A DNA stretch of 42,574 nucleotides, taken from the IMG/VR virus record IMGVR_UViG_3300018416_000032, positions 1-42,574 of that record; one strand, written 5' to 3'. The stretch's first letter is position 1. Each line of letters opens with the position of its first letter. A program made the translations under genes and the position numbers. Of this stretch, positions 2 through 31,184 are shown one piece after another. Source of the stretch: a virus. The notes under the pieces were generated by a model. The model saw only the letters and a program-made list of their open reading frames with translations, had not been told where the DNA came from and made no database searches.

Positions 2-3000
2 AAGGAGGTAACTACTAGAGTAGAGGTCGATCTTGCTCGTGAGGGTTTATTCAACGATACATTTGTGCCGGAAGAGGAAGACTTAACTCCCGAGGTAGAT
101 GAGCCTGAGGTTGTGGATACGGACGCATCCGAAACGCCTACCGTGTATGAGGATTTCTCATATAATGAAAAGAGCGTAAAGATTGAGCCACAGGAGAAGG
201 AGGTCTTGGAGAAGGCAATCAAGGCATACGAGGATTCAGCACAGAAAGTTAATGGAGTATCAAGTCAATCAGCTACTCCAAAAAAAGATTTTGCAGAAAC
301 AACAGGAATAAACAGCCAGTCCAAGTTGGGTCAAAAGGTATACCAACAACTAAAGGACTTGGATGTAATAGATAAAGACGGCAAGTTCACTAAGCCTACC
401 GCCAAGGATCAGAAGCTTGAACAAGATGCAGCTAAGTTGCAGGTCACTAAGAATAAGAACAAGGTAAAGAAACTATTCGGTAAGACTAGCGATGATGGAA
501 GGCGAGTTACTGTACCCGATCCGGTGGGCCAAAAGGTAGCAATCAATAATAGTGCTGAGCCATATACTATTACATCATACGATCCTGACACAGGAGAAAT
601 GCGGGCTGAACAGGTAACTACTAGGGGTGGTAAGATAATCAACCGACCCGTGAAAGTAGATGCCGACGGAGCTTTTGATGTAGCAACGGACAAGCGAATA
701 GGGAATGTCAGGAAGTTTACAAAGCGAGGTAAGGTAGGTAATAAGAAGACTGAGTACCGAGCGTACCAAAGTGCTGAGAACGAGGATATATTCTTTAGTG
801 AGGAAGCACCAGAGGGCGGATACATCCCTGGACTAGGGGGCGAGTTTACCACGGCAGAGCAAAAGTCTGTTATGCTACAAGACCCGATCGTCCTGAACAT
901 GAATGGAGGAATCCCGAATGAGCAAGACATGGAGATCGCACAGCGTAATCTTGCTACGAATAATGACGGGGTAGTATTTGAGAATGTTGGTTTTAATCAA
1001 AGGGAGATAATCATTACCCGAAACCAAGGCGAGGTGTATGAAACACGAAACACATCTATTCGCAACAAGATGGGAGAGCTTGGTTACTCTGAGGCCGAGA
1101 TGGATGAAGTGTTTAACCCTGTGGGGGAAGTACTAGGAGAAGACCCTATACTCCCACTAATTGGATCCATCGTAGGAAATCATCAATTCGAAAGGTCTAG
1201 TCCATTTATAGGTAAGACTATATCAAGGGAAGAGCTTATGGCAGATTCCCCTGACAGGAGTGGCATTGATGAAAAGTATATAGATTCCAACGGAGAAGTT
1301 AATGCGATTCGCTGGGCGTATGACAATAAGAGGTCATACTTTACAGGTAAGTCACTAAGCACATCCGATATGGTGCAGGGCAATAACCTAGGTGTTAGTG
1401 AGACTTTCGACTTTGATCCTGATGCGGTGTATGAGTTTAGGGGCAGGGATGCTTATGATGTAATCGAGGCTAAGACACAGGAGGAATTTGAGGAGGCATT
1501 GTACAGGAAGCGACCAAAGGGAACTAAGAAGATATTTAAAAACCGATCCGAGAACACGGGCGGGTATTATGAGTTTGCCTCAGATGATTATGGTAAGAGT
1601 TTCACGCTCGGAGATGTAGAGTTTAAAAAACCAGTTCCAGATGAGCAAAATGCTTACCTTCCATTGCTAGATGACTCACTTGAGCAACAACAGGTATCTA
1701 TTCTTTCAGTTGAAAATAGGTTAAGCCCAAGGCAAGAAAAGGGAGAGGAGGGGGAGGTCTTAGTTATTTTACAGGCAGACACCACCAGGGATGGACTAGA
1801 GGAAGGTAACGTCCGCATAGCTCAGCTAGACAAGACAGGGAAGAAGATTTTTGATTCAGTAAAAGTAAAGAAGGATGGTAAACTGCCTGTCAATAGGTAT
1901 ACACCTGTTCAAGACCTTACCGAGAGTAGTTATACTATGATTGGTCAGGTTAAGTTGTTTGAGCCTCACTCCGAGAGGATTGACTTAATGTATACTAATT
2001 TATCCGAGTTCCTGTCTGACCCGGAAGTGCAGGCGGTAACAGGATATGATGGGGAGGTTTTCGTGCCTTCACTCAATATACCTAAGGTTAGTGGAGCTAG
2101 GGGCGAAAGGTTAAAGCAGTCCTTTTCTGCGATCCAGCAGATAGAGCGGTTGCAGAAGGATAAGCCAAAAGACTACAAGAAGAGGATCAAAGGATTGCAG
2201 TCTATACTTGATGGCTTGCAGGCGGAAAAAATACTTTTACGGGACACAGAAACTAAAGTAATAGAATCAGCCTTAGGAACTCTTAATACAAAATTTTCTG
2301 CTGAGAATGGATTAATCGAAGCTGACTTAAAGGATGTAATGCAGATATATCCAATGCTTGATCCGGTTTTACAGAAAAGGATAACAGACCTTTTAAACAA
2401 GGGAGAAGGGTCAAGTGAAGCTACATTCTTTACCGATCTACTTGAGCTTACGGTATCCGACCAGGAAGTAAAAGAGCAGATACGAGACCTTAAGGCAAAA
2501 TTCGCAAGCGTAGATGCCGAGAAACTATATGCTGCACTACGAAATTCCCCTGAGTTAGGTAGTGTTATATCCGAGTACAGCGAGATTTACCGCCAACTTA
2601 CTGGGTACCAAAATCAATCTAGTGAATACATAAAGACATTAAACGATGGTATATTTAATCTGACTCAGGCTTTCAAGGAAGTGCGTAGCAAGCTGGGTAT
2701 GCCCGAGATTAGCAATATCGAAAAGCATGCACTAGATGCAGTCGAAAACATAAGTGCAAGTGCTGAGATGAAGCAATTGCAGAGTATCCTGGCAACGGAG
2801 GGATTGCGTGCATATAGGGAGCTTGTCGAGCAAGGCGTAATTATTCCTTACACTACTAATGTATTACCCGTAGCGCGATGGGGTGATTTTGGGGCAGGCA
2901 CTCCTGAGTACAACGACTGGGTAGAGTACTCAAAGAAAAATCCTATACGAAAGGAAAAGGACTATGGGATACCTGCCATTAGGTCAAAGCCAGCCGAGAG

Positions 3001-6000
3001 GTTTGAAAAGCAGATAAAGAAAAAGTTCGAGGAGGTCATAAGGATTGCTACATTAGCCGAGGATCAGGAGAGCAAAAAGGAACAGACTCGTGCAGTAGAA
3101 AATATATTAAGCAGAATCAAAACAGGAGACTCTACCGCTCTTGATTTTAAAGCACTCCTTTTTGAGTACATCAGGGTGTACACTGATCAGTCAGAACTGA
3201 ATACGGATGGGGCTGAGGAAATATTCGATATACTTGATTCTGAGGCTATACTACGCGTGGTAGGTCGCGCCCCAATTGATGCAGTTGACCGCCTTATACT
3301 AGAAGTACAGCACTCGGATGAGTTTAACGACTTCATGCGAGATAACAAAGGAATGGGCATTCTTTCGCAGGACATAAAAGATAAGATATTTGGAAGCATG
3401 CGTAATGCATATGGCGTGCCCTCTCCTGAAGAAAAGATTTGGAAGGTTACCCCAAGTAAAAAACCAAGGGGTAAAAGAAAACAAAGGGAGTCCGAGAAGT
3501 TTATAATAGCAAAAAATAAATTCAGCGCACTTAGCCAATACCGTGAGCTGATGGGTTTGCCGTCAAATGATACTGGCATTAAGGCAAGCACTTCCAAATT
3601 CGGAACCTCAATATACAAGAGGGGGGCACAGACCTTAGCTAATAACCTAGCTGATATGTTTAGGGGTGGCGTGATTTTGTTTTCTGATGAGGATAATAGG
3701 ACTACTGTAAAAATGTCTAACATGGGTGCAATGCCCAAGGGTTATGTTGACATGACCACAGGTAGGGAGATGGAGACTGACATCTCACCCCTTAACGAGG
3801 AAGATATTGAGGGCAATCGGGCTGGTCGGATCAAGCAGACAGGTGTGGTTGCATTTACTGAAGAGCATCCGATGGAGCTTACAGGGATGCAAGAGCAGTT
3901 GGGTGAGGCAAGGGCAGCCATCGGTAGGTTTACGGAAGCTAATTCTGCAATGCAAGGTCTTCCATTCCCTGCGATTAGTGCGGTCAATCGAGTACTTAAG
4001 TTGGCAGAGTCTAATAAGGCTACCAAGTATTGGGCACAAGCGATTCAGCGTAATAAGGATTTAGTAGATGGAATGACCGTGAGGTTTGTTCCGTGGTCTG
4101 AGTTCAGGAAGTACGCAACCACTCGGGAGGACCAAATATCAACTGCGGTATATCTGCAGTCGAAGAATGAAATTTTAGTTTCCGATCTATTTTACGACAA
4201 CCCGAGCATCACCGCAGATGAGCAGTTGTCTAGCGTGATCGTACACGAGATAATCCACGGCCCCACAAAGTTGGCTATGGATATTGGATACATGCAAGCC
4301 AATGGTCATGAGTTGCCGGGCAAGATGGACTCCACTGATGCCGAGACCCTTGGAAGAATCTACAGAAGCTTAGACGAAGTAGTACTCCCAGAGTTACGCG
4401 AAAAACTAGGTAACGCAGACTATGTACATGGATTGTCATCAGTAGATGAGTTTTGGTCAGAGGTGGCATCTAACCCTAAGTTCCGTAAGTCACTATCCAG
4501 GACAAGATTTTCAGCAGAAACGAAGAAGAAGTTAGGGATAAGTAAGTCGTGGATTTCAAATGCATGGGACTATGTAAAAGCAATCCTTGCTAAGTTCTTC
4601 GGGCTTGAGACAAACACCGAGTCACTCAAGTGGGCAAACGAGCAACTTGATAAGGTACTAGAGTCAGCTCAACAACTTACCCCAATGCGTCATTCAATAA
4701 ATGCAGTCAATGCTCGAGGGGTCGGAAGCCTGCACATGCTTGGTGGCGAAGGAGCAATCAAGGTAATGGGAGATGAGTTTGCATTTGAGTGGTTTGATGG
4801 CACAAAGCGCGTGTTAATCAATCCAAAGGAGTTGCAGATAAAAAGGAATATATCATGGAGTAAGGAAGGGATCTTTGAGGATGGAGAAAAAATCTCCGAC
4901 ACCACACAGATGATTAAGTTATCTGACTTGGTGGAGTGGGATCAATTATTCTACGCCTACCCAGGTCTTGAGAATATAGATGTAACTATTGACCCTAATT
5001 ATAGGGCTGAGGGTTCATACATAAAAGAGGTTGCATCTATTCAGTTGGGTCTAGGTGGTTTTACAGAAAGGGACTTATCTGAAAAAGATACTATTTCTAC
5101 ACTTATCCATGAGATGCAGCATGCGATAGATACAATAGACGGAAACCCTGGAGGGTTTAGCCCAAGTGCTTTTAAGTTAAACCTGCCTTGGTTGAAGAAG
5201 TCCAAGCTATGGCAAGACTTCATGATGGGTATGGCAGATGAGGGGTCAGTTGCATCAATACATAATTGGATGTTAATCGCCCATCGGAATATCAATACCC
5301 TAAAGGAGTTGGTACCTAATGATCAAACGGGAGTAATCCAAGATACCATAGATAACCTTGAGAAGGTAGTCTCAATACTTTCACCCTTCGAGATATATAA
5401 GAGCAAGTCAGGAGAAGTTACTGCTTTTGCATCTGAGAATATATACGAGGCAATGAACGAGCGGCTGGAGCAAGAGCTAGCTGATTATAGGGAAGCAATT
5501 AAAGCCGGCAAAACTGCCCGTCATCCAGCACTAAACTTTGGGGGTATGTTGGCTAACAATGCGTGGAGGTTTAATTATACCAACTTTCATGTTATTGAGT
5601 CCGCACTGAAAAGAGCAGGTAAGAATGATCTGGCTGAATTATTTAGTCCGCATGCAACCCGAGACTTTGAAGCACTAGGCATGTACGATAAGGCGGTACC
5701 CACTCCCGATGCATCCGAGCGTGTGTTTCAAGAGGGTGATGTGGCTGCAGTCAATGAGGTAGTAAGCTTACTAGCTAAGGCATATAATAAGTTGTCTTCC
5801 AAGGGCATGGTTACACAGACTCCCGAGGAGTTCCTTAAGGACATGGCTCCCGGTAAGGTAGGCACTGAGGGATTTTACAAGCGACTAGCTAAAGGCATAG
5901 ATGACCCTGAGTCTATCCGTATAGGTGACCAAGGTAGAAACCAGGTAACAAGAACCCATGCCTCTAATAAGGCTATTGATTACATTTCTCAAATGCTTAG

Positions 6001-9000
6001 GGGTAGGAAGCAAAAGAACACAGGCATCCTAGACAAGCTGGATCAAGCGGAAAGAACTGCACTTGATATCAATGAGCAGATAGAAGACTTTAACGAACTA
6101 TTTAAGGGAGTAATAAAGAAAGGCTTAGCTACCCCTGAAGACATTTCTAAGACCATGCTCGTTAGTATGAAGAAGCTCACCATTGAGCAAATACGAGACA
6201 TTGCCGCACAGGTTAAGAAGCCAATCCGCAAGTCCGCAATGGATATGGATGATGTTAAGACCAGTGATATTGTACGAGTGGTCAACAAGATCGTAGACAT
6301 TGACACCTTCGAGGACTTAACTACTCAAGAAAAGAATGACGCTATTGAGAACCTCAATGATCGTCAGTTCTCAGGCAACACACCTGAGGACAAGTACCGC
6401 AGAATGGCGCTACTCAAAGTTTTGGAATCACAAAAGGACACAGGGATGTTCCTTTACAGAATGGCAACTGACAAGCTCGGACAAGGAGTAGGGTCGGAAA
6501 GGAATAAACTAATTCGTGATCTTAATAAGATCGTGAGTGCCACAAAGACCGAACAACTAGATGGCATCAAGTACGAGTCAACCTTCACTAAAAGACTTGA
6601 TACTGTTAAGAAGAAAAGGAAGAACTTATTTTTACTCGTTGAACTTCTTGACTCCACCCAAAAGGAGAAGGAGATGCTCAAGGAGTTACATAATGTAATA
6701 AATCCTACATACAAAAGACTCCGTGCATCCATGGGAGAGCTTGAACCTACCGACATTGGTGACGGAAAGCCCATGACCATTATGAGGCTGAATAGAAACC
6801 CCGACGGGAAACCTGTCGGCGGGTACACTAAGGAGACTATCGTCATTAGCCTAGATAAGAACGGGGCAATAAATAATCCCGGCTTTGACAAGGCAATATC
6901 TGAAACACTTCACTTTGCCCGTGATCCAATCAATGTAAAGAAGTACGGAGACCAACCATGGTTCAGGAATATGTCCCGCAATGCACAGGTTGCCCTCATG
7001 GATCCAAGTGGAGGACTAAAGGATAAATACTTTACGCAACGAAAGAACTGGCACCTCGGGTCACTAGAATCAGTAGGTCAAGCGATGAGTCGGTTTGGTC
7101 CTGCGGGGAAGAAGATAGGCGGGTTGATCTCGCAAGTCATTGGTCAAACACGAGACCTTCAAAGCCAAGTCAAGGTCTACGCAATCGCAGCCAATAAGGC
7201 ATTTGTTCGGGTATCCAAGGAACTAGGTCTTAATGGATCGAGTATTTACAGCGAAGTCTGGCAAGACATGGCATTTTGGTTCGACAATCACCCCGAGTAC
7301 TACGGCAGGGAAGATGTTGCATTTTCTGAAATGTGGAAGTGGTTAAGGAACGAGCGCCCCATGCATCTTGAGAATGTTAAAGACATGAATCGTGCCCGTG
7401 ATGCCGTTAGGTTTTGGGTTAATAAGGAGGTAGAGGCTAAGAATCACATGCGATATGTGAATGAGGAGGTGCTTGGCAATAGGATCCGTGATGACCAGGT
7501 TACCGTGCAGTCAGAACTTGATGGGTCACAGGTAGATTTTTACAGAAGACCAATTGATCTAGGTTTCTCCACATGGAGCAGATCCTTAAATAATCATGCA
7601 ATCTCCTCGGTAGTCATGCTTATGCGTAGCAAGCTAAACGAGGAAGTAAATACCGACACTAATCGTGAGAAGCTACTCCAACAGCTTTCCAATAGTGCCC
7701 AGCAAGGAGACATGCCAAATGTAGATAAGTTGATGTCCCTTCTTTATGGGGATGATCAGGTAATTAGTGAGTTCGTGGAGCCATTCATATTAGGTGGGGT
7801 GAGAAGGTCAGCCTTTACTGGACCAGATGGAGCACCGGTAGGGAACTCTCAGTTTGCCATGTCATGGAAGAAGTCAGGTAAGGACATGATGACATTCCTT
7901 AATGATGTCTTTGATACATACTCTGAGAATGATGGTCTTGATTCTGAGCAAGAAGACCAAGCGAGGTTTGAGTGGTACGATAGCTTTGCTAAGCAATTAA
8001 ATTCAAGATATAAAAGATTAGTTCGGGCTGACACTCAAGTAGCTAACGATGCTCACAATGTGATGAAGGCAAGTGAGGCTATTAAGAATACACCTCGCTC
8101 ATTAGACTCAAGGCAAATTGAGTCCAAGCTTCCCAAGAAGTTTTTCTACTACGATATTCATGATGAGGTAAGCACTCAGATTAGATTAGCCATGATGGTT
8201 GCCACATCAGTGTTCGGTAGGAATGGCATGAAGATCAATAACATCGGTCAAGGTTTCTATGACAAGATGAAGGATCGTAAAGCTCTGTTTAACAATATCA
8301 TGACAGAGGCTACTAGGGGAGTCCATGAAGCCCCTCAGATGACATACAGCGGTGCAGCCAAGAAGGAAGCTTATAGTATCTTAAAGGATCAGCTTAAGGA
8401 AAGTAACCCTAAGTTAGCATGGGAAAGACTGTATAATGATGCGGTTACATATCGAGAATTTGGAAAAGTCTTCGATCAACTAGGTCAGTACTACGGCAAG
8501 GGGAACATATCGGGAGCTTACGGTGATGCAAATGTGCTACTTGAGTTATTGGGCACGCAATCACTACTTGTGCTTAATAATCCCAAGTCATCATTTTGGC
8601 AGACCCTAGCGTTGGGAGAGTTCCCGATGGCATTTCGTGGTCTGAATAGGATGTCAGGTAAAGCTACAGGTGCTGCGCTTGCAAATATGTTCGATCAATC
8701 ATTTGGCGGTATACTTGAGGCAATGAACTTCAGTCTTCCCAAGACAAGTCGTCTCGCTAGGTCACTAAATAATACACACTTTCGCACACCAGAAATGGAG
8801 CTACCGCTCAAGGATTTACTTACTCAGGTCGGACCAAATGGTGAGATGGTGAATGGTACGAAAACGAACTCATTCAAGAAGGGTATTCGTTTTGTAAAGA
8901 ATGCAATAGCACACAGCAGGCAATACAACCCGGATGGTAGTAGGCAATCCTTTGATGCATTCACAATGTTTACGGGACTATTCCCGTGGGCGAACGGAGT

Positions 9001-10462
9001 GATCAATCACTCGGTGGGTGTTGGTACTGCTACTGCCTACGAGTCTGAGATACTTAGGATCGCAAAGCACATACAGGATCAGGGTAATGACATATTTGAT
9101 CCAAGGGAGTTCACTGCAGAGGAGTTGGGCATGAATAACTCAAAGACTGCGGAGATGGTGATCGGGGAGAGGGATGGTTGGAACAACATGAACAACATGC
9201 TCCTGGAGAATGGCACATCAAGCATGTCAAGGCTTGCGTTTGACTACCTCCAAAGAAGGGTAAGTAACCCGGATGCACCCGTGCTTGAGCACAATACGGT
9301 TCTTATGATGAACCAAGTGGGAATGTCCAATGTATCAGGTGAGGGATTTAATGCTAAGATCCCCGCACTTTATAATAACGGACTAATGAGGTACGCTGGA
9401 ATCTTCCTTGGTTGGCCTATCTGGAAGATGGCACAGTCCAACAGATTTATTGGTAGGGAAGCAGGTGATGAGCTTGGTTCCTACATGGCATTCATTAAGT
9501 ACCTCGGGTTACTTTCTGCGGTATATATGCCATTGGGATTATCCGCAGCTTTCTTAGTAGATTGGTATGACGAGGAGATTGTAGGTAAGCCTAACAACCT
9601 TCCACCACTTACCCCGTGGGCAATGATGCCGGTAGTCGGTCCCTTGTTCGCGCTTAGCAATGAAGAGTCTACAATCTACGCCCTTACATCTAGGCTTGCC
9701 AGGGCAGGTAACATTTACGGCATGGGTTTTGAGTTGGCTAATAGTATGTTCGCCACAGGTGATCCTTTTGGTGCAGCCAAAGAGTTCTCCCTAGATAGTA
9801 GACTATTCATGTTCAACACCTTTAGGAATGTGCGAGATGCACTAGGTACATGGTACCACCAAGGTGAGGCAGATTATGGTAATGTCATTCGACCAATGAT
9901 GTACGGGCTAGGCTTAGGCTCAGTCATACAGCAAATGGACATAGTTACCAACCTCATGGATATAGACATTGAGGAGCGTAGGGTAGCTGACTACTTATCA
10001 GCAAAGAATTTAATCAAGAAGGCATCGTGGGTAATGGGGCTTCCATTAACACCGCCCGCCAAAGGGTATGGTAAGCCTTCTCCTGTCTCCATAAACCTGC
10101 GCCAAATGGAAAGGGCGGCATACGCCAATGACAAGACAGAGTTTTTTAAGCAATACCAAGAGGCGATAAGTGCCGCCAAGGTGTACATCGAGGAGAACGG
10201 CATGAACACAACTGCCGAGAAGTATGTACACGAAAGGTTTAGGCAACGAAACTTAAGGTATGGAATAACCAAGGGTAGAATCTCGGACGCTGATTGGAAA
10301 AGGATCCTGGAGATACAAGATGCTGATGATCGAGTCATGCTCGAGAACTACCTAGGTCTACATGAATTTTATTTAAATCAAATAGGAACTAAGCAATCTT
10401 CACTCCCAAGTGCGTCTCAGTTGAGGCGCATGGCATTGCTAGGGGTTCCTATGCGCTACTAA
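2..10462 (+). CDS. Giant polyvalent-type phage protein with two zincin-like motifs (5' end open)
   Basis: A single frame of about 3,480 codons. It is open to the left edge; the first conventional start in it is GTG at 65, which has no Shine-Dalgarno, so the gene may begin outside the window. The perfect AAGGAGGT at 2-9 has no in-frame ATG, GTG or TTG at usable spacing. Counting from the GTG, there are two zinc-peptidase motifs, HEIIH near residue 1394 and HEMQH near residue 1682. The second is followed by Asp/Gly-rich sequence typical of the LPD23-like domain of large polyvalent proteins. The N-terminal third is hydrophilic and charged. The last 400 residues hold hydrophobic stretches (around 9390-9430 and 9500-9560). 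Such proteins in phages are thought to be packaged and ejected with the DNA, but this is family inference. N4-type virion RNA polymerase has similar size, yet I see no polymerase motifs. Order of unnamed domains is unresolved. Confidence 0.85.
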   Translation, partial: KEVTTRVEVDLAREGLFNDTFVPEEEDLTPEVDEPEVVDTDASETPTVYEDFSYNEKSVKIEPQEKEVLEKAIKAYEDSAQKVNGVSSQSATPKKDFAETTGINSQSKLGQKVYQQLKDLDVIDKDGKFTKPTAKDQKLEQDAAKLQVTKNKNKVKKLFGKTSDDGRRVTVPDPVGQKVAINNSAEPYTITSYDPDTGEMRAEQVTTRGGKIINRPVKVDADGAFDVATDKRIGNVRKFTKRGKVGNKKTEYRAYQSAENEDIFFSEEAPEGGYIPGLGGEFTTAEQKSVMLQDPIVLNMNGGIPNEQDMEIAQRNLATNNDGVVFENVGFNQREIIITRNQGEVYETRNTSIRNKMGELGYSEAEMDEVFNPVGEVLGEDPILPLIGSIVGNHQFERSSPFIGKTISREELMADSPDRSGIDEKYIDSNGEVNAIRWAYDNKRSYFTGKSLSTSDMVQGNNLGVSETFDFDPDAVYEFRGRDAYDVIEAKTQEEFEEALYRKRPKGTKKIFKNRSENTGGYYEFASDDYGKSFTLGDVEFKKPVPDEQNAYLPLLDDSLEQQQVSILSVENRLSPRQEKGEEGEVLVILQADTTRDGLEEGNVRIAQLDKTGKKIFDSVKVKKDGKLPVNRYTPVQDLTESSYTMIGQVKLFEPHSERIDLMYTNLSEFLSDPEVQAVTGYDGEVFVPSLNIPKVSGARGERLKQSFSAIQQIERLQKDKPKDYKKRIKGLQSILDGLQAEKILLRDTETKVIESALGTLNTKFSAENGLIEADLKDVMQIYPMLDPVLQKRITDLLNKGEGSSEATFFTDLLELTVSDQEVKEQIRDLKAKFASVDAEKLYAALRNSPELGSVISEYSEIYRQLTGYQNQSSEYIKTLNDGIFNLTQAFKEVRSKLGMPEISNIEKHALDAVENISASAEMKQLQSILATEGLRAYRELVEQGVIIPYTTNVLPVARWGDFGAGTPEYNDWVEYSKKNPIRKEKDYGIPAIRSKPAERFEKQIKKKFEEVIRIATLAEDQESKKEQTRAVENILSRIKTGDSTALDFKALLFEYIRVYTDQSELNTDGAEEIFDILDSEAILRVVGRAPIDAVDRLILEVQHSDEFNDFMRDNKGMGILSQDIKDKIFGSMRNAYGVPSPEEKIWKVTPSKKPRGKRKQRESEKFIIAKNKFSALSQYRELMGLPSNDTGIKASTSKFGTSIYKRGAQTLANNLADMFRGGVILFSDEDNRTTVKMSNMGAMPKGYVDMTTGREMETDISPLNEEDIEGNRAGRIKQTGVVAFTEEHPMELTGMQEQLGEARAAIGRFTEANSAMQGLPFPAISAVNRVLKLAESNKATKYWAQAIQRNKDLVDGMTVRFVPWSEFRKYATTREDQISTAVYLQSKNEILVSDLFYDNPSITADEQLSSVIVHEIIHGPTKLAMDIGYMQANGHELPGKMDSTDAETLGRIYRSLDEVVLPELREKLGNADYVHGLSSVDEFWSEVASNPKFRKSLSRTRFSAETKKKLGISKSWISNAWDYVKAILAKFFGLETNTESLKWANEQLDKVLESAQQLTPMRHSINAVNARGVGSLHMLGGEGAIKVMGDEFAFEWFDGTKRVLINPKELQIKRNISWSKEGIFEDGEKISDTTQMIKLSDLVEWDQLFYAYPGLENIDVTIDPNYRAEGSYIKEVASIQLGLGGFTERDLSEKDTISTLIHEMQHAIDTIDGNPGGFSPSAFKLNLPWLKKSKLWQDFMMGMADEGSVASIHNWMLIAHRNINTLKELVPNDQTGVIQDTIDNLEKVVSILSPFEIYKSKSGEVTAFASENIYEAMNERLEQELADYREAIKAGKTARHPALNFGGMLANNAWRFNYTNFHVIESALKRAGKNDLAELFSPHATRDFEALGMYDKAVPTPDASERVFQEGDVAAVNEVVSLLAKAYNKLSSKGMVTQTPEEFLKDMAPGKVGTEGFYKRLAKGIDDPESIRIGDQGRNQVTRTHASNKAIDYISQMLRGRKQKNTGILDKLDQAERTALDINEQIEDFNELFKGVIKKGLATPEDISKTMLVSMKKLTIEQIRDIAAQVKKPIRKSAMDMDDVKTSDIVRVVNKIVDIDTFEDLTTQEKNDAIENLNDRQFSGNTPEDKYRRMALLKVLESQKDTGMFLYRMATDKLGQGVGSERNKLIRDLNKIVSATKTEQLDGIKYESTFTKRLDTVKKKRKNLFLLVELLDSTQKEKEMLKELHNVINPTYKRLRASMGELEPTDIGDGKPMTIMRLNRNPDGKPVGGYTKETIVISLDKNGAINNPGFDKAISETLHFARDPINVKKYGDQPWFRNMSRNAQVALMDPSGGLKDKYFTQRKNWHLGSLESVGQAMSRFGPAGKKIGGLISQVIGQTRDLQSQVKVYAIAANKAFVRVSKELGLNGSSIYSEVWQDMAFWFDNHPEYYGREDVAFSEMWKWLRNERPMHLENVKDMNRARDAVRFWVNKEVEAKNHMRYVNEEVLGNRIRDDQVTVQSELDGSQVDFYRRPIDLGFSTWSRSLNNHAISSVVMLMRSKLNEEVNTDTNREKLLQQLSNSAQQGDMPNVDKLMSLLYGDDQVISEFVEPFILGGVRRSAFTGPDGAPVGNSQFAMSWKKSGKDMMTFLNDVFDTYSENDGLDSEQEDQARFEWYDSFAKQLNSRYKRLVRADTQVANDAHNVMKASEAIKNTPRSLDSRQIESKLPKKFFYYDIHDEVSTQIRLAMMVATSVFGRNGMKINNIGQGFYDKMKDRKALFNNIMTEATRGVHEAPQMTYSGAAKKEAYSILKDQLKESNPKLAWERLYNDAVTYREFGKVFDQLGQYYGKGNISGAYGDANVLLELLGTQSLLVLNNPKSSFWQTLALGEFPMAFRGLNRMSGKATGAALANMFDQSFGGILEAMNFSLPKTSRLARSLNNTHFRTPEMELPLKDLLTQVGPNGEMVNGTKTNSFKKGIRFVKNAIAHSRQYNPDGSRQSFDAFTMFTGLFPWANGVINHSVGVGTATAYESEILRIAKHIQDQGNDIFDPREFTAEELGMNNSKTAEMVIGERDGWNNMNNMLLENGTSSMSRLAFDYLQRRVSNPDAPVLEHNTVLMMNQVGMSNVSGEGFNAKIPALYNNGLMRYAGIFLGWPIWKMAQSNRFIGREAGDELGSYMAFIKYLGLLSAVYMPLGLSAAFLVDWYDEEIVGKPNNLPPLTPWAMMPVVGPLFALSNEESTIYALTSRLARAGNIYGMGFELANSMFATGDPFGAAKEFSLDSRLFMFNTFRNVRDALGTWYHQGEADYGNVIRPMMYGLGLGSVIQQMDIVTNLMDIDIEERRVADYLSAKNLIKKASWVMGLPLTPPAKGYGKPSPVSINLRQMERAAYANDKTEFFKQYQEAISAAKVYIEENGMNTTAEKYVHERFRQRNLRYGITKGRISDADWKRILEIQDADDRVMLENYLGLHEFYLNQIGTKQSSLPSASQLRRMALLGVPMRY

Positions 10463-13361: not shown

Positions 13362-14246
13362 TTAACCTATAGCAAGTGATGTTTGTACATTATTATGTAC
13401 TATTTTATGACCGAAATTTCGTGCTGATTTAATGCGGTCTGTTCGTGTTCTTATTCTTGAGGTTAAGCGATCAGTGAAGTCATATGCGAATGAGTCAGCT
13501 GAGTATATGCGATCCTTAATCCGATCAGACTTGAGACCGGTGGTCTTGTACCCAAATAGATGAACCTTCAAGCCATTAGTGTATGGCTCAAGTGCATCAA
13601 GTATCTGCGCGACAACTTCTGGATTTTTGTTACGCTTACAGGTTGACCCTATCCCGATCCAACCAGGTATTGGCGTGTGCTTGCTAAACGAGTGATCCCA
13701 TAAGCCTTGCTCATTGCACACTTTATTACCAAACCTGTCGATCCAAGGTCTACTTATCGACTCATCCCTGAGCATACGTCGATATAAGTGGAAGTGATCG
13801 ACATAATCTTCCACATCCCAACCTTGAAGCACGGGCATGACAGGAACCTTAAGACCCTGCTTGATTGCTTGATCCACGATTTGGATGTATCGCTCAACAG
13901 TTTTGCGTTGATGTACTTTAATTGATGCCTTCTTGCCCATGCCTTGTAGCATCTTAATGACATCAGGTTCACACATGTAATCTTGTGTTACAATGCACGC
14001 AAGATCACCGCAGTCCTGAAAGCGTACGGCAATGCGTACATATTCTTCGGGCGACATAATAAAGTCCCCGTACTTTGTGACTTGGGAGAATGCTCCCGAG
14101 TCCATCATCCAACGACCCGCACGGATCGGAGCCTTGCGTATTTGCAAGGCCCCGTTGTTAATCCGTACCAAAGCGTTTGCCGAGATCATGGCATTCACTT
14201 GGTGGGCTCGCTGAAAATCATCTGTTCCAACGAAGTATTCCTTCAT
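13362..14246 (-). CDS. dpdA: DpdA-like tRNA-guanine transglycosylase homologue (7-deazaguanine DNA modification)
   Basis: A 294-residue protein with the look of the phage DpdA branch of the TGT superfamily. It has MDSGAFS near residues 48-54 (the Asp is the expected nucleophile or base-binding residue), VTQDY near residue 87, PVLQGW near residue 140, and the hallmark GIGSTCKR near residue 200. DpdA exchanges guanine in DNA for a 7-deazaguanine such as preQ0, which protects phage DNA from restriction. No folE, queD, queE or queC is seen in the window, so the precursor would come from the host or from genes outside. It is the last gene of the long - strand operon, coupled by an ATGA junction to a 57-residue ORF. 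The exact base inserted cannot be predicted. Confidence 0.7.
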   Translation of the reverse strand: MKEYFVGTDDFQRAHQVNAMISANALVRINNGALQIRKAPIRAGRWMMDSGAFSQVTKYGDFIMSPEEYVRIAVRFQDCGDLACIVTQDYMCEPDVIKMLQGMGKKASIKVHQRKTVERYIQIVDQAIKQGLKVPVMPVLQGWDVEDYVDHFHLYRRMLRDESISRPWIDRFGNKVCNEQGLWDHSFSKHTPIPGWIGIGSTCKRNKNPEVVAQILDALEPYTNGLKVHLFGYKTTGLKSDRIKDRIYSADSFAYDFTDRLTSRIRTRTDRIKSARNFGHKIVHNNVQTSLAIG

Positions 14247-14416
14247 GATTTATTCCTTTCTATTTCTTCATTCATGTCTAAGCCTTCATCCTTAATATGT
14301 TTTAGGATTAACTTTTTATAGACATCCTTGGTTATCCATCGGTTTAACTTATTATCAAATAGTCCCCAGCATGGTGACCATTTGTAGTCCGTCTTGCGAA
14401 CTTCATACCTTTTCAT
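14243..14416 (-). CDS. Hypothetical 57-residue basic protein
   Basis: A short ORF that fills the gap between the dpdA-like gene and the XF1762-like gene, joined to both by ATGA overlaps. The product is rich in Lys and Trp (KTDYKWSPCWGLFDNKLNRW). A GAAAGGA ribosome site precedes its ATG. Its last codons (IERNKS) are the same as those of the upstream gene because both 3' ends are built from the same 22-base box that provides the next ribosome site and start. No family is recognised. Confidence 0.6.
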   Translation of the reverse strand: MKRYEVRKTDYKWSPCWGLFDNKLNRWITKDVYKKLILKHIKDEGLDMNEEIERNKS

Positions 14417-23273: not shown

Positions 23274-23920
23274 TAGATGTCCCTCATTGCGTTGAAGAGG
23301 CTCTTCACTTTCTTTTCGAGCTTCTCAATGATCTGCGATTGCTCATGCACAATCTTTCCAAGCTTAAGGATTGCCTCCGTATCCATAGGATTATCCTCTT
23401 GCGGAGAATCCGTAGAAGCAATGAAGGCATGCAACGCAGTACCCAACTTAGCCAGCACATCAGGAACCTCGGGGCAGGTTTGTGATAGCACAGGTTCTGC
23501 CTCCTGCTTGTTATCAACGGCAGTGGCAATATCCTCTGCCTCCTGTTCTGCTGATGGTACATCCTTAGCCACCTCAATATCCTTAGGCTTAGGTGGTGTA
23601 GGTATATCGTTGACCACCTCAGTCTCCGGGATGTCGGTGATGTCGGTGATGTCACCGCGCTCCTCCTCCTTGGTAGCAACAGGTGAGGTATCCATAACCT
23701 CAAGCTTCTGCTTCCACTCATTGACTAATCTCCAGCGTGTCTGCTCCTTACTCTCGCCCTTCACCTCAAGCACATTCTTGTCATCGGTAAAGAAGTTGGT
23801 CGGGTTAGCCGACAGCTTAGGGTTAGATAGGACGATAAGATCCTTGAACTTATCCTTTAGGGGCTTATCTAGTGGAGCATACCACTTGTTGAACGATAGT
23901 TTATCATTTATTTCTGACAT
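23273..23920 (-). CDS. Hypothetical 215-residue acidic protein with C-terminal coiled coil
   Basis: The N-terminal 70 residues look globular (FNKWYAPLDKPLKDKFKDL). The middle is an acidic, Pro/Thr/Val-rich linker with a small tandem repeat (DITDITDI, encoded by three 9-base units near 23630-23655). The last 40 residues form a probable coiled coil (HEQSQIIEKLEKKVKSLFN). It is joined to the AAA+ gene by TAATG. It could be a partner of that ATPase, by position only. Confidence 0.6.
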   Translation of the reverse strand: MSEINDKLSFNKWYAPLDKPLKDKFKDLIVLSNPKLSANPTNFFTDDKNVLEVKGESKEQTRWRLVNEWKQKLEVMDTSPVATKEEERGDITDITDIPETEVVNDIPTPPKPKDIEVAKDVPSAEQEAEDIATAVDNKQEAEPVLSQTCPEVPDVLAKLGTALHAFIASTDSPQEDNPMDTEAILKLGKIVHEQSQIIEKLEKKVKSLFNAMRDI

Positions 23921-24615
23921 TATACTGTTTCCTTGCTATTTACTGCCGCTTTCCATTTTGCGACCTGCTTAAGTGCTGATCGCACGGACCCTTGTGCATT
24001 GCGCGCGGCATGTTGCGCAATGTTGTCCGGTACACCCGTTAGGCTAACAAGGGATGCGGACATCTCCTCATTAGTTGGGTTAGTTATGTGGTAGGGCATG
24101 AACCGCTCGGCAAATCTAGGCTCGAGGTATTCCTCACGCTCAGACTTGCTAAGTTTATCAAGCACCACCTTTTGTTCTTGGTTCTTGTTTGTAGTCACAA
24201 AGACCACAAAGTGATCAGGCAGATAGTCCTCGATCCAATCGAGTAGCATCTCCTGAAGATGTCGTTGCATCTTATCCACCTCATTGATGACAAGGGCACG
24301 ACATTTGCCATACATTGGCATGTACCTACACTCGTCAATTAAGGTGGACAGAGTTGCCTCCTTGATACTGCGACCCGAATACTCGGGTCCATGTCTTAGG
24401 TTGAAATCAGAGTCCACCCAAGAGCGTGCAAGCATCATGGCAATAGATGTCTTACCCACACCAGGATCACCGCTGAAAGCAAAAGACCCCGTAGATTCTG
24501 AACCTACGAGGTCTTTCATTTCGGAGAGTTGTTGTGCAACTCCTCGATATGTGGCTTGCGCCTTGCTTCCTACTATTTGATCTGGTGACTCAAGCTTCCA
24601 CTTAGCCCAGTTCAT
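23920..24615 (-). CDS. Clamp-loader-like AAA+ ATPase
   Basis: A 231-residue single-domain AAA+ protein. It has Walker A GDPGVGKT at residues 49-56, a Walker B-type ALVINEVD in which Asn-Glu-Val-Asp replaces the usual Asp-Glu, a sensor-1 segment VVFVTTNKN, and an LEPRFAERF region with candidate Arg finger residues. The C-terminal part (GSVRSALKQVAKWK) resembles the lid of RFC/DnaX-type loaders. It may load a ring or a helicase during phage DNA synthesis. No sliding clamp gene is seen in the window. Confidence 0.7.
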   Translation of the reverse strand: MNWAKWKLESPDQIVGSKAQATYRGVAQQLSEMKDLVGSESTGSFAFSGDPGVGKTSIAMMLARSWVDSDFNLRHGPEYSGRSIKEATLSTLIDECRYMPMYGKCRALVINEVDKMQRHLQEMLLDWIEDYLPDHFVVFVTTNKNQEQKVVLDKLSKSEREEYLEPRFAERFMPYHITNPTNEEMSASLVSLTGVPDNIAQHAARNAQGSVRSALKQVAKWKAAVNSKETV

Positions 24616-25180
24616 CGTCAGCGGGAATCTTATCCATGATCAACTGTGCCTTGAAGTCACTGTATAAGATAGGCTCAAATCCTATATCAACATTGAGCAT
24701 AGGGCACACTTGCATGATGTCATCCTGAGGGTAGCGAGGATCACTGAAGACAAATGAACCATACTCACCGCAGTCTTCGAATATCTTGCAGTACCCCCAA
24801 GCATGATCGCCTGTGGTTTTGTTAGGCTTGTTCATCATGTACCAATGTCCGGCTCCCGATAGATTGAAGAAGTGTAGGTACACCTTATCCAAGCTGGGGT
24901 CATCTGATGGTGCGTCAGGTAGATCGCGCCATATATCGGCAAGCTTTTCATAGTTACGAGCGATCTCAACTGCCTCCTCCTCCCTGAATGTTGACTCAGC
25001 TAGAGCCTGGCATTGCAGATTAGGCACGAACTCCTCCAGTCGCTTCCCGAGGTTAGCATACTTGCTCGGCCACGGAACTGACCCTCGCTTAGGCACCTTT
25101 AGCGTGCAGATCATCTCACCGGATTTGTGATCGGTTAGGGAGTACTCACTCCCATCATTTGGGTTACTGTATGTTGTCAT
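24602..25180 (-). CDS. Hypothetical 192-residue protein, weak DUF2958-like look
   Basis: Soluble protein. The stretch LHFFNLSGAGHWYMMNK followed by AWGYCKIF and an acidic Gly-Ser-Phe segment resembles the arrangement of DUF2958 proteins, which occur near plasmid PRTRC loci, but identity is weak and this is a suggestion only. GGAAGGATG precedes the ATG. It overlaps the AAA+ gene by 14 bases. Confidence 0.55.
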   Translation of the reverse strand: MTTYSNPNDGSEYSLTDHKSGEMICTLKVPKRGSVPWPSKYANLGKRLEEFVPNLQCQALAESTFREEEAVEIARNYEKLADIWRDLPDAPSDDPSLDKVYLHFFNLSGAGHWYMMNKPNKTTGDHAWGYCKIFEDCGEYGSFVFSDPRYPQDDIMQVCPMLNVDIGFEPILYSDFKAQLIMDKIPADDELG

Positions 25181-25535
25181 TGCCCATCATCCTTCCTATT
25201 AGTTCTAGGTCCATTGGAGACTCCATATTGTAGAGTGGGGAGCCTTCTTGACTTTTCGTTATTAGTTTTACTTGCTTGCCGAACTGAACACGCACGGCGA
25301 AGCATCCATTTATATCCACAACCTCAATGAAGTTAGGTCGGGCATCATGCACATTCATCAGTGCAACAACGCCATTGATCTGCCCCTCATTGATGTTTGG
25401 ATGATTTCTTATAGAGGGTGGCACATCTAGTGCCTCCCATAGTACAGGTGAAACAGGACGCATAGCATCCTTCACCATATGATCGATGTGTGTATTTACA
25501 TCCCCCACAACATAGGGATCTAGTTTATCAGGCAT
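25164..25535 (-). CDS. Hypothetical 123-residue protein
   Basis: The first gene behind a dyad element, with a clear AAAGGAGG Shine-Dalgarno before ATG 25535. It contains a strand-rich middle (FIEVVDINGCFAVRVQFGK). It overlaps the next gene by 17 bases. No domain is recognised. Confidence 0.6.
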   Translation of the reverse strand: MPDKLDPYVVGDVNTHIDHMVKDAMRPVSPVLWEALDVPPSIRNHPNINEGQINGVVALMNVHDARPNFIEVVDINGCFAVRVQFGKQVKLITKSQEGSPLYNMESPMDLELIGRMMGNDNIQ

Positions 25536-25548
25536 AGTGCCTCCTTTC

Positions 25549-25581
25549 GTTACTTATTATTTCGTGTTACATTTGTAACAC
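25549..25581 (-). promoter_or_regulatory. Operator-like double dyad in a 49-base intergenic gap
   Basis: Two overlapping elements: the 22-base GTAACACGAA-N5-AAGTAAC (25549-25570, - strand) and a perfect 18-base palindrome with 8-base arms GTGTTACA and TGTAACAC (25564-25581). The gap between 25536 and 25584 is one of the few true intergenic spaces in this operon, so an internal promoter under the same control as the other dyads is likely. Confidence 0.5.
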
Positions 25582-25584
25582 ATA

Positions 25585-26551: not shown

Positions 26552-27192
26552 GTGTGTGTCCCCCATCCGTGTGAGTCATGGTATATAAGTCCGCCATTCA
26601 TGGAGAATACATACCCCATCCGCTCATCCTCGGGCAACTCAGATGTATACTTACGATAGTCATAAAGCATCATGAAGTCCTGAGTCCTTTCCTTATCTAT
26701 ACCGGGGTAGGGATACCATTTATCTGCAGATTCATTGTTACGCACATAATTCCATCGCTCAACAGCATCCTTCAGTTCTACCTCACGGCGAAGTTCATAC
26801 CGTTGGAACGCAAAGCAATAACGGTCATCACGAGTAAGGCGGTACACGATCTTATTAGGTATAGACTTGTATGACCCCGTGTCCACACACCATTCACGAT
26901 GGGCATGCCATATCTGGAATGTCTTAAACAGACGGTCCGTATGATCCCATGGTAAACCACGACCCTTACCATTAGGTGGCTCATCTGAGCCCCAACCTGC
27001 ACCATTGAGTACAGCTTCTGCGATACCGGTCATTACAAGCTTAGCACCCGCATCCATATATATATTAGTATACGGATCGAGTGTAGAGTCATAGGCATAC
27101 AAGCCACGGGCATGGTTAAGGAACCACTCCCTTCTGCTTACCTCATCAGCTAGTTCACCTGTATATGTTGCTGCTACTACTACTTCAGGCAC
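26548..27192 (-). CDS. Hypothetical 214-residue protein
   Basis: The frame is open to 27312, but a GTG at 27192 has AAGGAGG at proper distance and overlaps the upstream gene by only 8 bases, so this start is preferred. The product is Trp/Tyr/Arg-rich (FQIWHAHREWCVDTG) and soluble. No recognised family. Confidence 0.6.
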   Translation of the reverse strand: MPEVVVAATYTGELADEVSRREWFLNHARGLYAYDSTLDPYTNIYMDAGAKLVMTGIAEAVLNGAGWGSDEPPNGKGRGLPWDHTDRLFKTFQIWHAHREWCVDTGSYKSIPNKIVYRLTRDDRYCFAFQRYELRREVELKDAVERWNYVRNNESADKWYPYPGIDKERTQDFMMLYDYRKYTSELPEDERMGYVFSMNGGLIYHDSHGWGTHT

Positions 27193-27610
27193 TGGGCACC
27201 TCCTTGTTTTCCCACTTTGCAGTGAATTTATCATGTGCCTTATTGAACTCTCGGTCAGCTTGCTCATTGTTGTATGACCAATCGGCCACCAATTCATCTG
27301 CACCATTGCCAAGTATGATCAATACACCGATCCGAAGGTGGTTGTGTACGGTCTTATCTGCCAGGAGATGACTTGTCCTGCCAGTATCCACAAGCTTGGT
27401 GAGTACAACAGATGACTCATCTACACCCATGATATGGGGTAAGGCTCGGTTCATGTCACTAACTCTTGCCCCTCCAATTGATGACCCCTCAGTGTGCGAT
27501 GAACCAATGACATAAGTAGCTTCACCGTCATTAACGGAATTAATTGTCCACCCGTCATCCAAGACAGCATGAAGGAAGTCCACAACGATAGGTCTGTAGT
27601 TCTTACCCAT
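27185..27610 (-). CDS. Hypothetical 141-residue protein
   Basis: AAGGAGG precedes ATG 27610. The N-terminus (FLHAVLDDGWTINSVNDGEA) and the following strand-turn pattern suggest a small alpha/beta fold. A C-terminal helix is rich in Asn, Glu and Lys. It overlaps its neighbours on both sides by 8 bases. Function unknown. Confidence 0.6.
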   Translation of the reverse strand: MGKNYRPIVVDFLHAVLDDGWTINSVNDGEATYVIGSSHTEGSSIGGARVSDMNRALPHIMGVDESSVVLTKLVDTGRTSHLLADKTVHNHLRIGVLIILGNGADELVADWSYNNEQADREFNKAHDKFTAKWENKEVPSA

Positions 27611-28934: not shown

Positions 28935-30314
28935 GTTATTGCGCCGAGTTTAACGGGCTGGCTCCGCCCGGTTGTTGTTGTGAATGATAGCATTCGTTGT
29001 AAAAAATGGCTGTTGCCCACACCATGATCAGAAGTGAGATGTCGATCTCACCTACATAGTGCGGACTACGGGACAGGTAGCTCCGATTGTGTTGCCGTAG
29101 TTTGGTTGGGGTAACTACTCCCATTTACACATCTGCTCTAGCCTGTTGTTATCAGGCACTACTTGCTTCAAGCAGTTTGGTTACACAAAGGCGGGGGCAC
29201 CCAACCCCCTAACTGTATTTACATACTACATTTAGCCTCCTTGGTTTAAGGTTCTTGGATGTGAAAGAGGTCACCCACACTACATAGTGTAGTGCGAGTG
29301 ACTGCACCCACGATGAACGCATCCATCGCTTCGGGATGCTACGGGGGCATAACGCTCCCCGTGGACGAAACAACATCACCTACATTTATAGACAATCATC
29401 CATAGACATACATACACACCAATTACCTGTATAGCTGGGTCAGATAATCTGAGACGAACATCATTCATTCAGCCCGTAGGCCTAGTTCGTTGTTATTATG
29501 GATAGACATAGGTTTCAGTCTAGACAGTTCCTGCAGTGATGAGACAGGTCTTGCCGTACCTAATTGCATCAAGTGATCTGCACATACATGACATACATAC
29601 AAATTACTAGGTGGCTCCGAACCACCGCTCCTTGCTCATGCTCCGTTGGTAGATGCGCGGAGAGGAGGCATACAAGAGTGCATTCCCATTACCGCGGTTC
29701 AAATCGCTAGGGTGCCCATGATCTGGTCATAGTGCTGGCTACATCTCGTATGTTTTATAAAGCGTCTGACGGGGACTTACACCCTCCTTCACCTCTATGG
29801 CTACTTCGTTCAGTACGTGATCAAACGCTACTCACAGATCGCATTGTATTGGCATCGGCTCCATTCGTCCGTCCATGCAATTAAATGCAGTGCGCATCAC
29901 ATAACTATAAAATATTCTGATGACCTAAGACATCAGTACCGCACATAGGTAACTCCACGCACCCCCAAGGGACTGAACATACAGGCACAACGCTAAATAT
30001 ATACCGCAATACATAAAAGGTAATCGCTACCCGCTACGCTGTATAGAGTGAATGGCAAATGTACGAGCGATCAACAAGCCGGACCGCAACTGGCGAGCAA
30101 CGCCGATCGTAACCGACGCGCATCAATATAGTACACAATGAACACAAGACCGCAGGCTACATAACCCAACGCGATCTGTGGCTAATCAAAAACTGACCTG
30201 CTCCGCAACTAGGCTGCTGCTCGATGATAGTGATAGCGATTTTTTAAAAAAATCTACAAGACATCTAAGGAGTCCAGGGTCAATGCGTACAAAATAAATA
30301 GGTACGCAATGAAA
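28935..30314 (+). ncRNA. Gene-free region rich in stem-loops: candidate large structured RNA
   Basis: No ORF above 62 codons with a plausible start exists here on either strand, yet the sequence is not AT-rich filler. Perfect or near-perfect stems follow one another: 29034-29040/29045-29051, 29062-29071/29095-29104, 29107-29111/29119-29123, 29141-29145/29153-29157, 29193-29197/29205-29209, 29278-29284/29288-29294, 29319-29324/29334-29339, 29340-29347/29356-29363, 29440-29444/29448-29452, 29453-29459/29485-29491, 29610-29614/29622-29626, 29641-29645/29658-29662, 29917-29922/29931-29936, 30238-30245/30247-30254 and 30284-30290/30302-30308. Seven G-U extensions work only on the + strand and two only on the - strand. 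A + strand terminator follows at 30315. Strand, ends and function are inferred; a weak promoter pair (TTGTTG 28975, TGTAAA 28998) could start it. Confidence 0.4.
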
Positions 30315-30340
30315 TCTAGGCAAGTTGCCTAGAAGTTTTT
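30315..30340 (+). terminator. Rho-independent terminator on the + strand
   Basis: Arms TCTAGGC and GCCTAGA (the complement extends to 9 bases with a one-base centre) are followed by AG and five T residues at 30336-30340. There is no + strand gene within 17 kb upstream, so if used it would end a non-coding + strand RNA. On the - strand the T-run is only three bases. The stem shares AAGTTGCCTAG with the repeats farther right, so it might be part of that repeat set instead. Confidence 0.5.
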
Positions 30341-30379
30341 GAAATTATTTTACGATCTTTACGCTAGTATTCCAACGCG

Positions 30380-30580
30380 TAGGCAACTCCCGCAAGAATT
30401 CCGTTGTCGTTGGTAGCGTGAAATCATGCGTTTTGATCTACTCCCACGGGAGCAATCTACTTTGCAAGTTCTCAATCTATGTCTAAAAGTTGCCTGATTT
30501 GCAATTAACGCAAGGCAACCTAGGCAACTCATCGAAACAAGTTGCCTAGGTTGCCTTGCCATTGGCGAGCAATGGCAAGG
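30380..30580. repeat. AGGCAACT octamer cluster with two strong alternative hairpins (candidate origin)
   Basis: AGGCAACT or AGTTGCCT occurs at 30381, 30488, 30522 and 30540, AGGCAACC (or complement) at 30513 and 30549, and a partial copy in the terminator at 30318. Two of the copies form a perfect 20-base inverted repeat (arms 30510-30529 and 30540-30559, 10-base loop). A second perfect hairpin with 11-base arms (30554-30564 and 30570-30580) uses part of the same sequence, so the two structures exclude each other. Iteron clusters beside an AT-rich palindrome (GATTTTTT-A-AAAAAATC at 30238) are typical of replication origins, but an RNA switch or attenuator is equally possible. An 83-codon - strand frame across it looks like noise. 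Confidence 0.5.
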
Positions 30581-30614
30581 TAAGTTTATAATGTTGGTTA
30601 GGTGTTCCAATTGA

Positions 30615-31184
30615 TTAAGCAGTCAAAGATTTCCTCAAGTCAATGTCACCATTGGCAAGGATTTTTACTCCTGTAGATTCTCCTCCTGCTTCTCGGTGTG
30701 CTTCACTTATAGCAGTCAAAACCTGTTGGTTGTGAGAGTGTAGCATTAGAAATCCCCTAGCCATTAGGTTGGCATTTTGAGCGTTTTTCTTGGCTTTACC
30801 TTCAAGTTCTTTGGCGTTAATGGCATTGCATCGGTCAAAGAGTGCGACTGCCATCTGCCTTGCAAAGTTTGCAACTTGTCCAAGATATTTTCCATCGGGC
30901 AAAAGTTGGCAAATTGCCATGGGGTCAAAGGAATTGATTTTGCCAAGTTCTTTCATGGTGTTGCCATGTTCTTTCCATAGGGTCGAATTGACTTCGTTCC
31001 GTGCTTCCTCGGTCAAGCGGTTGCGTTCTACTTGGGTCAAGGATTCGTTGGCGTCAATCTCCTCATAGGTGGCAAGCAATGCGTCTGAGGGCGTTGGCGT
31101 TGGTGTCTCAATCTCGGCAACTGCTTCCGTCTTTGCCTTGGTCTTGGTGCTTTTTCTTGCGGTGGTTGGTTCTGTGTTCTTCAT
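30615..31184 (-). CDS. Hypothetical 189-residue Ala/Asn/Lys-rich protein
   Basis: The N-terminal 35 residues are a Thr/Lys/Ala-rich, disordered-looking segment. The rest is helical, with LPDGKYLGQVANFARQMAVALFDR and a long Ala/Asn/Lys helix (ELEGKAKKNAQNANLMARG). Alanine is often encoded by GCC followed by an AAN codon, a habit less marked in the neighbouring genes, so it may be a recent arrival. The leader is a mutated copy of the 22-base box seen at 14243 and 14413, lacking the AGGA. It sits alone between the repeat region and the divergent promoter region, a place fitting a DNA-binding or origin-related protein, but no domain is recognised. Confidence 0.65.
   Translation of the reverse strand: MKNTEPTTARKSTKTKAKTEAVAEIETPTPTPSDALLATYEEIDANESLTQVERNRLTEEARNEVNSTLWKEHGNTMKELGKINSFDPMAICQLLPDGKYLGQVANFARQMAVALFDRCNAINAKELEGKAKKNAQNANLMARGFLMLHSHNQQVLTAISEAHREAGGESTGVKILANGDIDLRKSLTA

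Follow-up and report, generated by a model that had tools for sequence, protein, structure and literature searches.

Genomic context of a gene-free interval

The window, meaning the whole 42,574-base stretch of DNA analyzed here, is a partial record of an uncultured virus of bacteria. Its genes include an integrase, a DnaB-like helicase, a clamp loader, a Sak-like annealing protein, and a DpdA-like gene. The annealing protein had matches solely in Synechococcus and Prochlorococcus phages, which suggests a cyanobacterial host. Positions 2-10462 encode a protein of at least 3,465 aa that had no match in PHROGs or Pfam. No genes are present between positions 30614 and 28937 (~1.7 kb), slightly more than the 28935-30340 that an initial annotation had already described as gene-free. 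A minus-strand gene lies on either side of this interval, and genes diverge onto both strands at ~31.2-31.5 kb, just upstream of the first of these:

30615-31184, minus strand: upstream gene, 189 aa
28761-28934, minus strand: downstream small open reading frame (ORF), 57 aa, sharing its C-terminal end with an ORF in the same place in a relative (L017:9697-9933)

Conservation in a relative without protein coding

A helicase-guided search returned five loci, and the region was present in one of them, G004 (79,741 bases). Because both ends of the G004 record match adjacent window positions, we consider this genome circularly permuted and probably complete. Identity between the two phages was 85% at 29100-29638 and 72% at 29641-30402. 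Inside the gene-free stretch, 25.7% of 100-base windows were at least 90% identical to G004, as compared to 2.7% elsewhere. Judged from this alignment, the gene-free stretch is under strong constraint other than protein coding. A functionless, untranslated remnant of decayed genes would fit the lack of annotated function, but conservation above that of the surrounding coding genes argues against neutral decay, and we regard this explanation as extremely unlikely.

There were 19 indels between the window and G004 in the stretch, 17 of which break the frame and two of which are multiples of three. The longest open frame common to both phages spans 47 codons. A protein-coding reading is excluded by the frame-breaking indels together with the lack of shared frames. 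Conserved reading frames in homologues, which the initial annotation said would count against an RNA, were looked for in G004 and not found.

Additional relatives were sought in several ways. A DNA search of phages and plasmids gave no match above chance, and when three conserved stretches were used as exact patterns to scan the viral collection, G004 was recovered as the sole relative. Two Prevotella matches from a pattern scan of bacterial genomes were dismissed as chance, with similarity ending at the pattern edge. Protein-guided searches were started from the helicase, from the upstream gene and two genes downstream, and from the gene on the far side of the strand switch, and none yielded an additional copy reaching the region. 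A covariance model of the four-way junction described below had no match in seven cyanophage genomes. All comparative evidence presented here is drawn from two homologues, the window and G004, with covariation assessed without a tree.

The same comparison revealed other features of the two phages, which are ~73-75% alike. A 141-aa gene at 27192-27607 in the window has no Pfam match, and G004 joins its two neighbors directly. Within the DpdA-like gene (13978-14249), 120 consecutive bases (13999-14118) are identical, far above the rest of the window, which could possibly reflect an exchange in the recent past or a second element under constraint. Runs of identical DNA also occur at 26594-26673 (80 bases), 25525-25582 (58 bases), and 4391-4452 (62 bases).

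Folding energy and compensatory changes

The initial annotation had called the region stem-loop-dense, which was not upheld. Folding energy in 150-base windows was no lower than that of shuffles, and mean MFE per nucleotide in the stretch was -0.22 on the plus strand and -0.25 on the minus strand, versus -0.23 elsewhere in the window. Because local folding is ordinary relative to both shuffles and the rest of the window, the stem count given in that annotation is not evidence on its own. When the whole 1.3 kb was compared with dinucleotide shuffles, the minus strand was moderately more stable, with a z of -2.8 for the window and -2.7 for G004; on the plus strand, z was -1.1 and -4.3, respectively.

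We used Watson-Crick-only counts as the main test of covariation because raw counts allowing G-U pairs favor the minus strand partly via base composition. The initial annotation had proposed checking for compensatory changes in a homologue, and in this one relative they were found: 13 Watson-Crick helices of at least 5 bp had at least one double compensatory change. Across 300 class-preserving column shuffles, the mean number of such helices was 2.9 and the maximum was 8, such that none of the 300 reached 13. The RNAalifold consensus contained 311 pairs, with both sides changed in 21. The stretch is long, non-coding, and conserved, and its helices covary in two sequences, as would be anticipated of a large structured phage RNA. 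Conservation without coding and compensatory changes support the core idea of the initial annotation, a novel large structured RNA.

Architecture of the predicted RNA

Identity, covariation, consensus fold, and non-coding character support a predicted RNA with the following features:

28990..30237, minus strand: predicted large structured RNA, with both ends putative
30225..30250, minus strand: AT-rich element plus CGCTATCACTATCA, 26 identical bases
30204-30197/29077-29070 and 30237-30233/29069-29065, minus strand: predicted closing helix P1, from RNAalifold, pairing the 5' end with the 3' end
29830..30182, minus strand: domain I, closed by the long-range helix 30180-30172/29841-29833
29917..29936, minus strand: hairpin within domain I with two compensatory pairs, CTGATG/CATCAG to CCAATG/CATTGG
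29761..29829, minus strand: domain II, a near-invariant 10-bp stem around three small hairpins (four-way junction), with two substitutions between the phages
29641..29662, minus strand: hairpin adjoining a variable extension, from the alignment, with a ~79 nt insertion in G004 beside 29641
29255..29422, minus strand: 3' domain, helix 29422-29415/29263-29255 around more hairpins, in the block of 85% identity
29302-29270, minus strand: 15-bp hairpin in the 3' domain with two consistent changes whose pairs form on the minus strand only
29133..29175, minus strand: nested hairpins with one compensatory pair, CTGCT/AGCAG to CTGCA/TGCAG
28988..29064, minus strand: 3' tail and possible terminator, a 12-bp hairpin and then a U6 run

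The predicted RNA is ~1.17 kb long to the closing helix and ~1.25 kb to its possible 3' end. The helix closing domain I has 9 bp in both phages and spans ~340 bases, with the sequences CACAGATCG/CGATCTGTG in the window and CATAATTTG/CAAATTATG in G004, which differ by four Watson-Crick double compensations. A helix with at least four compensations occurred in 3 of 300 shuffles. The pairs of P1 survive G-C/G-U changes although the surrounding 3' stretch has diverged. Several independent small RNAs in series, rather than one large RNA, would account for the unequal conservation of the blocks (85% versus 72%) and for domains that are separable. However, the long-range helix and the helix closing the 5' and 3' ends bridge these blocks, making a series of small RNAs very unlikely.

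At the 5' side, the AT-rich element is a candidate promoter or 5' end. At the 3' side, the window has approximately eight bases between the 12-bp hairpin and the six U, which amounts to a possible but weak terminator, while G004 has a canonical intrinsic terminator at its minus-strand end (L017:9682-9720). Another contig, IMGVR_UViG_3300022929_000071 (L022), is 99.7% identical and starts at window position 28988; its edge falls exactly on the predicted 3' end and represents an assembly break. The direct repeats GACATACATAC and CTACATAGTG, which the initial annotation took as hints of duplicated domains, are present in the window, but G004 has not kept one copy of each and we rejected the idea of duplication.

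Strand of the predicted RNA

The consensus fold had a z of -8.9 on the minus strand versus -4.4 on the plus strand. When the two sequences were folded independently, they had 43% of pair probability in common on the minus strand versus 24% on the plus strand, and 63% versus 34% in the conserved 3' part. These two measures alone are supportive but not decisive, because coding controls reached a consensus-fold z of -7.6 and 49% shared pairs (ranges: -1.3 to -7.6 on the minus strand, +0.1 to -3.7 on the plus strand, and 13-49% of pairs in common). Both extremes belong to the control at 23850-25130 (minus strand), where RNA structure inside genes is possible.

Some pairs can form on the minus strand only. 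In the hairpin at 29302-29270, CUC in the window and CCU in G004 lie opposite GGG, pairing via G-U on the minus strand and leaving A-C mismatches if read on the plus strand. By the consensus fold and the agreement of independent folds, the predicted structure favors the minus strand, and the G-U pairs confined to that strand, the orientation of the flanking genes, and the G004 terminator are in agreement. This is the opposite of the initial annotation, which had read G-U extensions as favoring the plus strand and had placed a plus-strand terminator at 30315-30340. The sequence of that terminator is indeed present, but it is not conserved: at the same place G004 has a hairpin of other sequence with no adjacent U-run on the plus strand. 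Given that the comparative evidence favors the minus strand, we rejected a plus-strand RNA.

Upstream hairpins and repeats

More hairpins occupy the interval from the upstream gene to the predicted RNA, among them:

30510..30559, no strand assigned: inverted repeat past the upstream gene, a 20-bp perfect stem with 9 of 18 aligned pairs doubly changed

This repeat is possibly the terminator of the upstream transcript or an RNase cleavage site, and a role as DNA is also possible. The motif AGGCAAC is found in seven copies in 30315-30560, and the corresponding G004 repeats are AGGCAAA, as if changed together. Inverted repeats and several AGGCAAC copies at 30280-30600, along with AT-rich DNA at 30235-30250, are what might be seen in a DNA element, such as a replication origin or a hairpin-bearing protein-binding region, with or without an RNA primer. 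However, GC skew tracks gene direction without a separate origin signal, and a DNA element leaves unexplained both the 9-bp helix covarying over 340 bases and the minus-only G-U pairs. Hence, we consider a DNA element quite unlikely as the explanation of the stretch.

A single large RNA as the probable explanation

At the level of sequence, comparison of the two phages has shown conservation without coding, compensatory changes, and a strand preference. The best explanation is probably one large non-coding minus-strand RNA, extending from ~30237 to ~28990, that would be separately transcribed and act structurally. Transcription of this separate molecule would start near 30237 and proceed to the terminator, canonical in G004 and weak in the window. 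The closing helix would then join the ends of the RNA around an interior made up of the domain at 30182-29830, the four-way junction at 29829-29761, the variable arm by 29641, and the multi-hairpin 3' domain at 29422-29133. The product would be a long, free RNA with several domains, expressed from the minus strand in the course of infection.

Its position between two same-strand genes would also suit a long structured leader or intergenic RNA in a minus-strand operon, acting in cis to control the downstream small genes. The G004 terminator lies just ahead of the downstream ORF and could be an attenuator. However, ~1.2 kb with pairing of the 5' and 3' ends far exceeds usual leaders, conservation is high in the RNA but poor in the small downstream gene, and a strong terminator would cut the RNA from the downstream gene. 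For these reasons, a leader is an unlikely alternative to a separately transcribed RNA.

Comparison with known large RNAs

Covariance searches of both phage regions against Rfam, at the gathering score and at permissive E-values, matched no family, in agreement with the initial annotation's failure to match the sequence to GOLLD or ROOL. The covariance models of GOLLD, ROOL, and OLE gave no match to either region at E-values up to 5, nor did the Rfam models of group I and II introns, RNase P, and tmRNA. A tRNA or tmRNA identity was rejected after dedicated searching, which for tmRNA included ARAGORN. A stretch resembling a tRNA T-arm near 29700 on the plus strand was judged coincidental, as its stem does not pair. 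By the tests performed, the predicted RNA falls outside GOLLD, ROOL, and OLE.

GOLLD is often found near tRNA genes or contains them, and ROOL, which is ~600 nt in length, is found near tRNA islands. The window has no tRNA, and the one tRNA in G004, its sole Rfam match, is ~14 kb away from the region. OLE belongs mostly to Bacillota and is ~600 nt long (PMC12054373); the predicted RNA resembles it as a bacterial RNA that is large and ornate and has no known reaction, but differs in lacking a match to the model of that Bacillota-centered family.

GOLLD RNAs are encoded by phages or prophages, with many exceeding 800 nt, and comprise several domains, the 5' part being more variable and the 3' part conserved, while ROOL is phage encoded, large, and complex in structure with a variable linker within (PMC12286853). 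The predicted RNA is likewise large and has multiple domains with a variable 5' and conserved 3' part, and its encoding by a phage or prophage is indicated by the integrase, DnaB helicase, clamp loader, and Sak-like annealing protein. It shares a complex structure and variable linker with ROOL. In contrast, it is longer than GOLLD and approximately twice the size of ROOL, and it has neither an adjoining tRNA or tRNA island nor a covariance-model match to either family. Solely by resemblance in size and setting, the predicted RNA may conceivably play the structural part that GOLLD and ROOL appear to play, as a scaffold or RNA-only assembly (PMC12286853).

We tentatively entertain, at somewhat less than even chances, a new ~1.2 kb class of phage RNA that is unrelated to Rfam families, constrained above most phage proteins, and folded into a multi-domain assembly closed between its 5' and 3' ends, possibly as an RNA-only cage or ribozyme. 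Its clear domains and strand make the predicted RNA directly testable. To our knowledge, structured RNAs longer than 600 nt are rarely encountered apart from the ribosome and introns, and the phage RNAs GOLLD and ROOL have no known function although they form cages, the GOLLD cage being a homo-oligomer. If the prediction is true, an unrelated and still larger phage RNA would imply more than one origin for such RNAs, and it would offer an independent case for probing what large phage RNAs do.
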